The notes beneath the pieces were generated by a model. That model saw only the letters and a list, made by a program, of their open reading frames with translations, had not been told where the DNA came from and ran no database searches. From an archaeon (GTDB lineage: Archaea > Nanobdellota > Nanobdellia > SCGC-AAA011-G17 > GW2011-AR17), in assembly GCA_018656555.1 (NCBI GenBank), contig JABHZQ010000023.1:66875-130874 (forward strand): a stretch of 64,000 nt of DNA, read 5' to 3'. This document shows positions 51,704 to 55,189 of this stretch, piece after piece; the stretch's first letter is position 1, and the number at the start of each line of letters is the position of its first letter. The translations under genes and the position numbers were made by a program.

Positions 51704-51877
51704 ATGTCAAAAGGAACACCATCCATGGGTAGAAAGTCTGGAAAGACTACCCATATAAGATGTAGAAGATGTGGTAAACCTTCTTACCACAAAATAAAGC
51801 ACATTTGTTCTAGTTGTGGCTATGGAAAGACAGCCAAAATTAGAAAATACAACTGGCAGAAGGAAACTAAAAGATAA
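51704..51877 (+). CDS. rpl37e: 50S ribosomal protein eL37 (57 aa; missing from the ORF track)
   Basis: [57 protein letters not shown]: CxxC...CxxC zinc ribbon; next to LSm as in many archaea. Confidence 0.95.
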
Positions 51878-51940: not shown

Positions 51941-52606
51941 ATGAATTCTACTAAAGATCTAGCTTATTTAATTGGAGTAATCTATGGTGATGGATATATC
52001 AAAAATGGAACAAAATCCAAAAAAGACAAATCTATAGACTATAAAATAAGTATAGAATTATCAAACCTTAGTTATTTAAAACAAGTTATTCATCCTTTAT
52101 TCTATAAATTTACAAAAACTAAATCAAAAGTAAGAACAAGAAAAAGAGCCAACAAAAAAGAAAGTGGCATACTTGAAATTAGAAACAAAAAATTATTTAA
52201 GTTCTTAACTGAAGATCTAAAAACTCACAAAGGTCCTAAAACTCAAAAGACTCAAGTTCCTAAAAAATTAAAAAACTGGTCAAATTCTCTCAAATATGAA
52301 TTCTTAGCTGGATATTTTGATACAGATGGTGGTCTAAGAGGAAACAGTATTGGATTCTCAACAAAAACAAAAGACTTTCAAAGCTATGCCTTTGAAATCA
52401 TTAAGGAAGCTGGAATTAAAGCATCAAAAGAAAGATGGTTAAATAAAAGTTATAGTAAACACTATTATGGTATCAGAATAAAAAAAGACAATATCGATAA
52501 ATTTTTAAAGACCTTCAAATTACGAAACAACAAGAAGATAGCTAATATTCAAGCTAAATTCCTATGCACGGGTGCCGGAGTGGTCAAACGGGCTGGAAAG
52601 GAATAA
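51941..52606 (+). CDS. LAGLIDADG-family homing endonuclease-like protein
   Basis: Two LAGLIDADG motifs: AYLIGVIYGDGYI and FLAGYFDTDGGL. The ORF reads into the tRNA-Leu gene and stops in its intron. Confidence 0.88.
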   Translation: MNSTKDLAYLIGVIYGDGYIKNGTKSKKDKSIDYKISIELSNLSYLKQVIHPLFYKFTKTKSKVRTRKRANKKESGILEIRNKKLFKFLTEDLKTHKGPKTQKTQVPKKLKNWSNSLKYEFLAGYFDTDGGLRGNSIGFSTKTKDFQSYAFEIIKEAGIKASKERWLNKSYSKHYYGIRIKKDNIDKFLKTFKLRNNKKIANIQAKFLCTGAGVVKRAGKE

Positions 52607-52679
52607 AGACTTTATTTCTTGGCCAAGCTTAGGACCCAGTGGCTTAGTGCCTACGCAGGTTCGAACCCTGTCCCGTGCA
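52566..52679 (+). tRNA. tRNA-Leu (UAG), class II, containing a predicted 30-nt intron at position 30/31 (52597-52626)
   Basis: Acceptor GCACGGG/CCCGTGC, D-arm CCGGAGTGGTCAAACGG, T-arm GCAGG-TTCGAAC-CCTGT, discriminator A. Removing AAAGGAATAAAGACTTTATTTCTTGGCCAA restores anticodon stem CTGGG-CTTAGGA-CCCAG with anticodon TAG. Confidence 0.9.
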
Positions 52680-52694
52680 GATTATTTTTCAAAG

Positions 52695-53603
52695 ATGGAA
52701 AAATACACAAAAGAGGTAAGCAAAGTAAAAAATTCTACCCTAGTTACATGTATCATTCCAGCATGGAACGAAGCAAAAAATATCAAAAGAGTTCTAAAAG
52801 TAGTAAATAAATATCCCCACTTCAATGAAATTATAGTTGTAAATGATGGTTCAGAAGATAAAACCTCAGAAGAAGTAAAAAAATTTCCAAAAATCAGATT
52901 AATAGAACACAAAAAGAACCAAGGAAAAACAGCAGCAATTCTAACTGGGATAAAAGCCAGTAGAGGTGAATTGATCTCTTTAATTGATGCAGACTTAATC
53001 CATCTTTCCAATGAAAACATTTCCAAAATGCTTTTCCTTACTCTAAACAAAGAATATGACATGACCATCCTAGACAGACAAGGTGACAGAAATGCAGTTT
53101 GGGGATGGACAAATGGTGCAAGATATTTTGGAGGAGAAAGAACCTTCTGGAAAGAAGATTTCAAAAAAATAAAAATCCCAAAAGATGGAGGCTATCTTCT
53201 TGAAATAATTATGAACCTTCATTATATTAACAATAAGAAAAAAATAAAAACCCTATACTGTAAAAACTTAAACACCGTCCACCAATATCAAAAAATTGGA
53301 AAAATAAAAGGTTATTATAGTTATATGGTCATGGCTAAGAAAATACTTGAAGTTGCAAAAATAAAAGGATATATTCAACAAATAAAATCAATAGAAGATG
53401 AACATCAAGAAATAAAAAGATTAGAAAGAAAAGAGAAGAAAATATTCAGTAAACTAAGAAAAAAGATTGGTGAAAGAAAATTCAAAGATATGGACCTAAA
53501 AGTAAATATCAATTTCAAAAAATTCATCCCTAAAATAAAAACAAAAAAACTTAAAGAATATATAATAAAACAATACAAAAAAAGAAAAAAGAAAAAAAAT
53601 TAA
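52695..53603 (+). CDS. GT2-family glycosyltransferase
   Basis: TLVTCIIPAWNEAKNIKRVLKVVNK...EIIVVNDGSEDKTSEEVKK...ELISLIDADLIHLSNENI. Start moved to ATG 52695 because the upstream part of the ORF is tRNA. Confidence 0.88.
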   Translation: MEKYTKEVSKVKNSTLVTCIIPAWNEAKNIKRVLKVVNKYPHFNEIIVVNDGSEDKTSEEVKKFPKIRLIEHKKNQGKTAAILTGIKASRGELISLIDADLIHLSNENISKMLFLTLNKEYDMTILDRQGDRNAVWGWTNGARYFGGERTFWKEDFKKIKIPKDGGYLLEIIMNLHYINNKKKIKTLYCKNLNTVHQYQKIGKIKGYYSYMVMAKKILEVAKIKGYIQQIKSIEDEHQEIKRLERKEKKIFSKLRKKIGERKFKDMDLKVNINFKKFIPKIKTKKLKEYIIKQYKKRKKKKN

Positions 53604-53875: not shown

Positions 53876-53901
53876 ACAATCAATGAATACAATCAACTCT
53901 T
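53876..53901. repeat. 26-bp direct repeat, copy 1 (end of hisS)
   Basis: acaatcaatgaatacaatcaactctt, identical to 55259-55284. Confidence 0.95.
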
Positions 53902-55106
53902 TTAACAATCTTAGAAACAACTAACTTCTCTTCCTTACCTGATTTCATATTTTTCAAACTAAACTTACCTGTCTTAAGCTCATCCTCACCAATAATTAAT
54001 ACATAAGGAATCTCCATTTTATTTGCATATTTCAAATTCTTAGAAACATTTCTTCCATTAAAATCAATATCACACTTAATTCCTTTAGATCTTAAATCAG
54101 AAATTATTTTCAAACTTTCATCCAAAGTTCCAATAGGAATAACATAAAGATCAACAACTGATTTCTTACCTTCCTTTTCCTTCAACACTTCATAAATAGG
54201 TTCTAAACCAAAACTAATCCCCACAGCTGGATAGTCTCCTTTACCAATAAACCCACCAATCATCTTATCATACCTTCCACCACCAGCTAAAGATGAATCT
54301 AACTCATCACAAACAGCCTCAAAAACTGTTCCAGTATAATAACTCAAACCTCTTGCTAAAGTATAATCAATCTTATAATTCTTAACACCAAAACCTTTCA
54401 AATAACCTTCAATCTGTTTTAACTCTTCCAAACCTTCGTTATTCTTCAACTTACCTTCTTTCACAATTTTCAATACTTTCTTACCATCAATCCCTTTATC
54501 TTTAAACTCTGCTAAAACCCCTTTCTCTCCAATCTTCTCCAATTTATCTAAAGTTAAAATAGCTGTTTCAATTTTATCCTTACTAACCCCCGCCTCAATC
54601 ATAACAGCATCCAAAACCTTTCTACTATTAATTTTTATTATAACATTAATTCCTAATCTCTTAAATGCTTCAGAGGCAATTGCAACTGTCTCAGCATCAG
54701 CTAACATACCTTTAGCACCAACAATATCAACATCACACTGCCAAAACTCTCTAGCTCTTCCCAATTTCACCGGCCCATCTCTAAAAACCCTACCAATTTG
54801 ATACCGTTTAAATGGCATCTTCAATCTTGGATTCATAGCAATAACTCTAGAAAAAGGAACAGTCAAATCATATCTCAAACCTAAATCTCTCTTACCTTGA
54901 TCTTTAAAACTAAAGGTCTCCTTCAAAATCTCAGCTCCACCTGTAAATTTTGCTGACAAAACTTCAAATCTCTCAATTAAAGGAGTCTCCAAAGGTGGAT
55001 AACCATATAATTCAAAAACCTCTCTAAGAACATCAACTATCTTCTGTCTTAATATTTTCTGTTCCGGTAAAAAGTCCTTTGTTCCTCTTGCATTCATCAA
55101 TTCCAT
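53880..55106 (-). CDS. hisS: Histidyl-tRNA synthetase
   Basis: ARGTKDFLPEQKILRQKIVDVLREVFELYGYPPLETPLIE; LRYDLTVPFSRVIA; YQIGRVFRDGPVKLGRAREFWQCDVDIVG; LARGLSYYTGTVFEA; GGGRYDKMIGGF. Confidence 0.97.
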   Translation of the reverse strand: MELMNARGTKDFLPEQKILRQKIVDVLREVFELYGYPPLETPLIERFEVLSAKFTGGAEILKETFSFKDQGKRDLGLRYDLTVPFSRVIAMNPRLKMPFKRYQIGRVFRDGPVKLGRAREFWQCDVDIVGAKGMLADAETVAIASEAFKRLGINVIIKINSRKVLDAVMIEAGVSKDKIETAILTLDKLEKIGEKGVLAEFKDKGIDGKKVLKIVKEGKLKNNEGLEELKQIEGYLKGFGVKNYKIDYTLARGLSYYTGTVFEAVCDELDSSLAGGGRYDKMIGGFIGKGDYPAVGISFGLEPIYEVLKEKEGKKSVVDLYVIPIGTLDESLKIISDLRSKGIKCDIDFNGRNVSKNLKYANKMEIPYVLIIGEDELKTGKFSLKNMKSGKEEKLVVSKIVKRVDCIH

Positions 55107-55117
55107 TTTAATAAAAG

Positions 55118-55189
55118 GACGGCGAGCGGGAATCGAACCCGCGCCATAGGATCCACAGTCCTAGATTCTACCATTAAACTACCGCCGTC
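55118..55189 (-). tRNA. tRNA-His (GUG) with genome-encoded G-1
   Basis: Reverse complement GACGGCGGTAGTTTAATGGTAGAATCTAGGACTGTGGATCCTATGGCGCGGGTTCGATTCCCGCTCGCCGTC: acceptor ACGGCGG/TCGCCGT, G-1:C73, anticodon loop CTGTGGA, T-arm GCGGG-TTCGATT-CCCGC. Confidence 0.97.

Follow-up and report, generated by a model that had tools for sequence, protein, structure and literature searches.

Collaborative homing has been described for group I introns of phages: a homing endonuclease gene (HEG) located beside the intron encodes an enzyme that cuts the intron insertion site, and both are acquired (PMC10448857, PMC2988022). In archaea, the LAGLIDADG endonucleases I-DmoI and I-Tsp061I are encoded within large bulge-helix-bulge (BHB) introns of rRNA genes. 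For archaeal tRNA introns homing is not an obvious candidate, because a gene does not fit into introns of their size, and a 2014 review considered the mechanism of their transposition unknown (PMC4090602). In a Caldiarchaeum population, an ORF lies beside a tRNA-Thr gene that gained an intron together with the ORF, which the authors read as an integrase (PMC3293823). The open-access literature yielded no description of an HEG located outside an archaeal tRNA intron, or of collaborative homing for archaeal BHB or tRNA introns; absence of reports there does not prove novelty.

The locus analysed here belongs to an archaeal genome of 1.08 Mb (G000), a reduced size that points to a lineage of DPANN type, and is found in a window on contig C3, the window being the whole 64,000-nucleotide stretch of DNA that was analysed. 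The neighbouring LSm, eL37 and eS8 genes of the window are of archaeal type, as judged from their Pfam matches. The features of the locus are:

51704 to 51877, forward strand: eL37 gene, upstream neighbour of the HEG (Pfam Ribosomal_L37e, 4e-22).
51941 to 52606, forward strand: two-motif LAGLIDADG homing endonuclease ORF, 221 amino acids, ATG to TAA (Pfam, I-DmoI-like fold of the model, dN/dS).
51962 to 52000, forward strand: LAGLIDADG motif 1, AYLIGVIYGDGYI, with the catalytic-type acid D17 (G16, D17 and G18 invariant in 15 orthologues).
52301 to 52336, forward strand: LAGLIDADG motif 2, FLAGYFDTDGGL, with the catalytic-type acid D129 (among 15 orthologues, 90% or more share D127 and D129).
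52566 to 52596, forward strand: tRNA-Leu(UAG) 5' exon, nucleotides 1-30, doubling as the last ORF codons (Rfam, intronless relatives).
52566 to 52606, forward strand: 41-nt overlap of ORF and tRNA, not conserved as protein (frame and stop vary among relatives; disordered in the model).
52597 to 52626, forward strand: 30-nt BHB intron at position 30/31, holding the TAA of the ORF (comparison with intronless relatives).
52627 to 52679, forward strand: tRNA-Leu(UAG) 3' exon, with the anticodon UAG at 52630-52632 (Rfam, intronless relatives).

The ORF is a member of the LAGLIDADG family, matching Pfam LAGLIDADG_3 (2e-11) and LAGLIDADG_2 (2e-6), both above the cut-off, and its AlphaFold model (pLDDT 90.8, with most of the core above 90) has the LAGLIDADG fold; the enzyme is predicted to cleave DNA site-specifically. 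In a Foldseek search the model matched PI-PfuI and I-DmoI, the latter with an E-value of 2e-10 and a TM-score of 0.80 on the target. The fold and two-motif architecture are thus those of I-DmoI and I-Tsp061I, and the associated introns are again of the BHB type, but these enzymes are encoded within their large rRNA introns, whereas the HEG described here lies outside a tiny tRNA intron. Between G000 and G004 the ORF has a dN/dS of 0.17, indicating purifying selection; the enzyme is therefore maintained, which for a selfish gene would imply continued homing.

The tRNA-Leu(UAG) gene occupies 52566-52679, a span over which the Rfam tRNA model scores 37.1 bits, and in the window it was missed both by ARAGORN with default settings and at the Rfam gathering cut-off. 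With introns allowed, ARAGORN called it Pro(AGG), a call overruled by the intronless relatives, which have the anticodon UAG. Here these relatives read CTGG-G-CTTAGGA-CCCAG (...GGGCTGGGCTTAGGACCCAG...), fixing the anticodon at 52630-52632 and the intron as the 30 nucleotides from 52597 to 52626, at position 30/31. By bulge-helix-bulge criteria applied to its sequence, this is an archaeal BHB tRNA intron, predicted to be removed by the tRNA splicing endonuclease. The four-base-pair central helix is formed by 52591-52594 with 52621-52624 (GGCU/GGCC), flanked by three-nucleotide bulges (GG|A and AA|G), and an 11-nt inner helix pairs 52598-52608 with 52610-52620. Of the 31 genes with an intron at position 30/31, 30 can form every pair of the central helix, the third pair of which covaries between C-G and A-U. 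An earlier, sequence-only reading of this DNA had placed the two-motif ORF upstream of the intron, reading into the 5' exon with its last ~13 codons formed by that exon and the first 10 intron nucleotides and its TAA (52604-52606) inside the intron. The coordinates bear this out: the tRNA begins at codon 209, and residues 209-221 correspond to the 5' exon plus 10 nucleotides of intron. As separate observations, the tRNA-Leu(UAG) genes L061 (in G035) and L080 (in G054) have an apparent D-loop intron.

Orthologues of the HEG abut or overlap tRNA-Leu(UAG) in 17 genomes besides G000, spanning eleven family codes: G001 (N-terminal half lost), G004, G015, G052, G098, G060, G087, G211, G158, G369, G359, G206, G157, G178, G106, G187 and G184. 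G212, with an HEG remnant at the same tRNA, is not included in this count. An HEG adjacent to the intron-bearing gene and not inside its intron, the arrangement characteristic of collaborative homing, is thus found in G000 and 17 further genomes. In relatives without the HEG, tRNA-Leu(UAG) often lies closely 3' of eL37. A more distant group of HEGs (G323, G268 and G298) overlaps tRNA-Leu(UAG) genes without the 30/31 intron.

Presence of the HEG and of the 30/31 intron was compared over the loci whose flanks were read or searched for an HEG. Both are present at 17 loci (two of them with a decayed HEG), only the HEG at five (G015, G098, G323, G268 and G298), only the intron at 16 and neither at at least 54. 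The intron is thus found at 17 of 22 loci with the HEG vs 16 of 70 without it (Fisher p=7e-6, ignoring phylogeny; the shared history of relatives makes the counts non-independent). Within a single genus, G052 has both HEG and intron while G024 and G041 have neither. The HEG of G098 is accompanied only by an intron at 37/38, and the sequence of the 30/31 site is altered; G015 has no intron, and its tRNA carries a compensated change from C11-G24 to U11-A24 that is absent from its congeners G005 and G011. Different stages of decay can be seen, with a truncated HEG next to the intron in G001 and G212 and the intron alone at the 16 loci mentioned, which would fit the usual life cycle of HEGs. A search for relatives in viral contigs found none.

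The association is not confined to tRNA-Leu(UAG). A protein search of relatives provided 57 LAGLIDADG ORFs, chosen regardless of tRNAs and leaving out matches within long frames (mostly more than 360 amino acids, presumed inteins) and a few others; as the query is itself a tRNA-abutting HEG, this sample leans toward its relatives. With a custom intron-tolerant tRNA finder, 30 of the 57 ORFs had their 3' end at a tRNA (23 sense, 7 antisense), vs four near whose 5' end one was located. Five others (L089, L106, L110, L109 and L083) come from Rfam or ARAGORN, bringing the number with their 3' end on a tRNA gene to 35, and inspection adds about six intron-bearing tRNAs (~41 of 57), where ~1-2% would be expected by chance. 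The targeted tRNAs include those for Leu, Thr, Tyr, Arg, Ile, Val, Phe and Met (approximate isotype assignments). Inspection of the flanks of the tRNA genes of G000 revealed three more HEGs, all on intron-bearing tRNAs and one of them just under the Pfam cut-off; among the tRNAs examined in this genome, an HEG is present on five of 11 with an intron vs none of 16 without (p 0.006).

HEGs also sit on intronless tRNAs for Ala, Gly, Arg and Thr, which excludes a strict need for an intron. In G024, L127 overlaps an intronless tRNA-Ala (GGC) and L131 an intronless tRNA-Gly (GCC), one sense and one antisense; the intron is therefore common, not obligatory. The HEGs at L016, L017, L018, L020 and L113 overlap a Met-type tRNA in antisense, 3' end to 3' end, and many of these tRNAs resemble initiator tRNA with several introns.

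The tree of the enzymes tracks the tRNA that is targeted. A quick tree built from 63 of the enzymes requires 22 changes of target label, vs 40.5 for shuffled labels, with none of 200 shuffles giving a value as low. The Leu(UAG) enzymes group together (support 80) and enzymes from one genome scatter; the tree also partly follows host families. Two enzymes encoded beside an Alba gene form a clade with support 100. At these loci, L098 (G036:C22:29900-32600) and L107 (G004:C9:500-3200), a LAGLIDADG ORF lies directly upstream of, or overlaps, a split Alba gene, the ORF of which is broken inside one codon (A|TG) by 30-33 nucleotides. The joined exons match Pfam Alba (4e-18), and both inserts can be fitted by hand to a BHB, making them candidate introns.

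We think it fairly probable that the ORF and the tRNA intron move together, as a composite unit, by collaborative homing. In a chromosome without the intron, the tRNA-Leu(UAG) gene, uninterrupted there, would be recognised around nucleotides 30/31 and cut by the I-DmoI-like LAGLIDADG enzyme, after which homologous repair from an occupied copy would transfer the short BHB intron and the adjacent endonuclease gene together. The inserted intron would destroy the recognition site, and its excision from the pre-tRNA by the host splicing machinery would mean that the tRNA still works. Since BHB introns are only ~14-50 nucleotides long, the gene would have to lie outside, directly 5' of the tRNA, the nearest harmless place being right at the border of the tRNA. 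The stop codon of the HEG could then drift into the tRNA, the 5' exon of which is open in all frames. As expected if every paralogue with the same target were protected, the tRNA-Leu(CAA) of G000, with a 5' exon that differs from that of tRNA-Leu(UAG) by one acceptor-stem base, has a 30/31 intron and no HEG; in other genomes the site is too diverged, or the HEG too decayed, for this comparison. The tRNA-Leu(CAA) gene (G000:C4:44495-44624, L168/L203) apparently has three introns, at 30/31, at 37/38 and in the T loop. Of the meanings offered by the sequence-only reading, the one that fits the HEG best is a selfish element that targets the tRNA but keeps it intact.

As in the phage systems, the HEG lies beside an exon and outside the intron, and its enzyme would cut the site at which the intron is inserted, so that both elements are acquired. 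The differences are that the introns are archaeal BHB introns of 14-50 nucleotides removed by proteins, that the enzyme is of the LAGLIDADG family, and that the host is mostly a tRNA gene, into which the HEG runs. Collaborative homing, described for phage group I introns, would then apply also to introns that proteins splice, and in another domain of life. The recurrence of HEG and intron pairs on many tRNA genes across a large archaeal group suggests an unrecognised route by which archaeal tRNA introns spread, and target-specific endonucleases encoded outside the same tRNA genes offer a concrete, directly testable mechanism for tRNA intron movement. A broader proposal is that such LAGLIDADG endonucleases, encoded outside the intron and specialised by lineage for a single tRNA or for Alba, generally drive the insertion and spread of short BHB introns in archaeal genes. 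We hold it with slightly more doubt than belief; if true, it would explain the apparent mobility of archaeal tRNA introns.

Several observations speak against collaborative homing, namely the five HEGs on tRNA-Leu(UAG) without the 30/31 intron, those on the intronless tRNAs for other amino acids, the partial grouping of the HEG tree by host family, and the position of some HEGs at the tRNA 3' end, in antisense. An explanation that we consider unlikely, kept alive by the HEGs beside intronless tRNAs, is that the enzyme recognises the tRNA gene near one end and the HEG homes alone into the flank; protection would come from the insertion itself or from substitutions in the tRNA, and introns would be separate residents, perhaps favoured as they also block cutting. 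The HEGs do touch tRNAs with and without introns, on either side, and the intron varies more than does the contact with the end of the tRNA. There is also a precedent in SegB of phage T4, a free-standing HEG in a tRNA gene region (PMC2988022), but SegB is a GIY-YIG enzyme of a phage, with an intergenic target and no intron. Against such homing stand the strong association with an intron at one position of one tRNA, the changed target-flank sequences in the intronless tRNAs that carry an HEG in G015 and G098, and the Alba loci, where an HEG again accompanies a short intron.

Collaborative homing has also to be weighed against simple descent, in which a single ancestor passed on HEG and intron as neighbours and the two were later lost independently of each other, without moving together. 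The partial agreement of the HEG tree with host families would be expected in that case, and the intron and HEG counts ignore phylogeny. Yet separate HEG lineages occur on many tRNAs and on Alba, which descent at one locus cannot explain, and congeners differ by having both elements or neither; we judge such a coincidence very improbable.

Equally improbable is a function for the fused tail, whether the tRNA exon serves as the C-terminus of the enzyme, as the sequence-only reading had entertained, or read-through or tRNA processing regulates expression. The overlap is found in most orthologues, but these enter the tRNA in all three frames (with tails such as GAGVVKRAG, VPEWSNG and CRSGQTG), and the position of the stop ranges from 36 nucleotides before to 173 after the first tRNA nucleotide. 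Four orthologues stop 0-36 nucleotides before the tRNA, those of G211 and G369 with a TGA right at the border and those of G106 and G187 upstream. In the AlphaFold model the predicted fold ends where the tRNA starts, and residues 212-221, with pLDDT below 50, are disordered. On the grounds of frame switching, upstream stops and disorder we reject a functional C-terminal fusion; the overlap reflects drift of the stop codon into adjoining open sequence, the 5' exon of tRNA-Leu being free of stops in each of the three frames. Comparing the interval between eL37 and tRNA-Leu in relatives, as had been proposed, therefore gives a divided answer: the overlap is incidental, given that some orthologues have their own upstream stop, whereas the placement beside the tRNA, which recurs in the 17 genomes, and the link to the intron are not.

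Hardly worth considering is a tRNA-targeting integrative element with an integrase and att sites, as proposed for the Caldiarchaeum tRNA-Thr (PMC3293823): there too, an ORF of similar size (813 bp) immediately precedes, in the same orientation, a tRNA gene that acquired an intron along with the ORF, and an ORF flush against such a tRNA looks alike, but that ORF does not overlap the tRNA and was read by its authors as a pNOB8-like plasmid recombinase, whereas the adjacent ORF here, to which our survey for a recombinase gene was confined, is a LAGLIDADG protein, and no same-strand tRNA-fragment repeat of at least 11 nucleotides occurs within ~4.5 kb upstream or ~3.3 kb downstream, which argues against integrase-type insertion with tRNA repeats. 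The string GCACGGGTGC upstream of the G015 HEG, considered as a repeat, lies within a CACCCG..CGGGTG inverted repeat and was judged a chance occurrence.

For annotation, it should be kept in mind that ORFs of this kind read into tRNA genes, and that standard tools overlook or mislabel intron-bearing tRNAs of the present type. A listed glycosyltransferase ORF (52572-53603, forward strand) likewise begins within the tRNA, its true start probably being an ATG near 52695. Further along the window, a tRNA-His gene (55117-55188) immediately precedes the histidyl-tRNA synthetase gene (53880-55106; Pfam tRNA-synt_His, 2e-45), both on the reverse strand.
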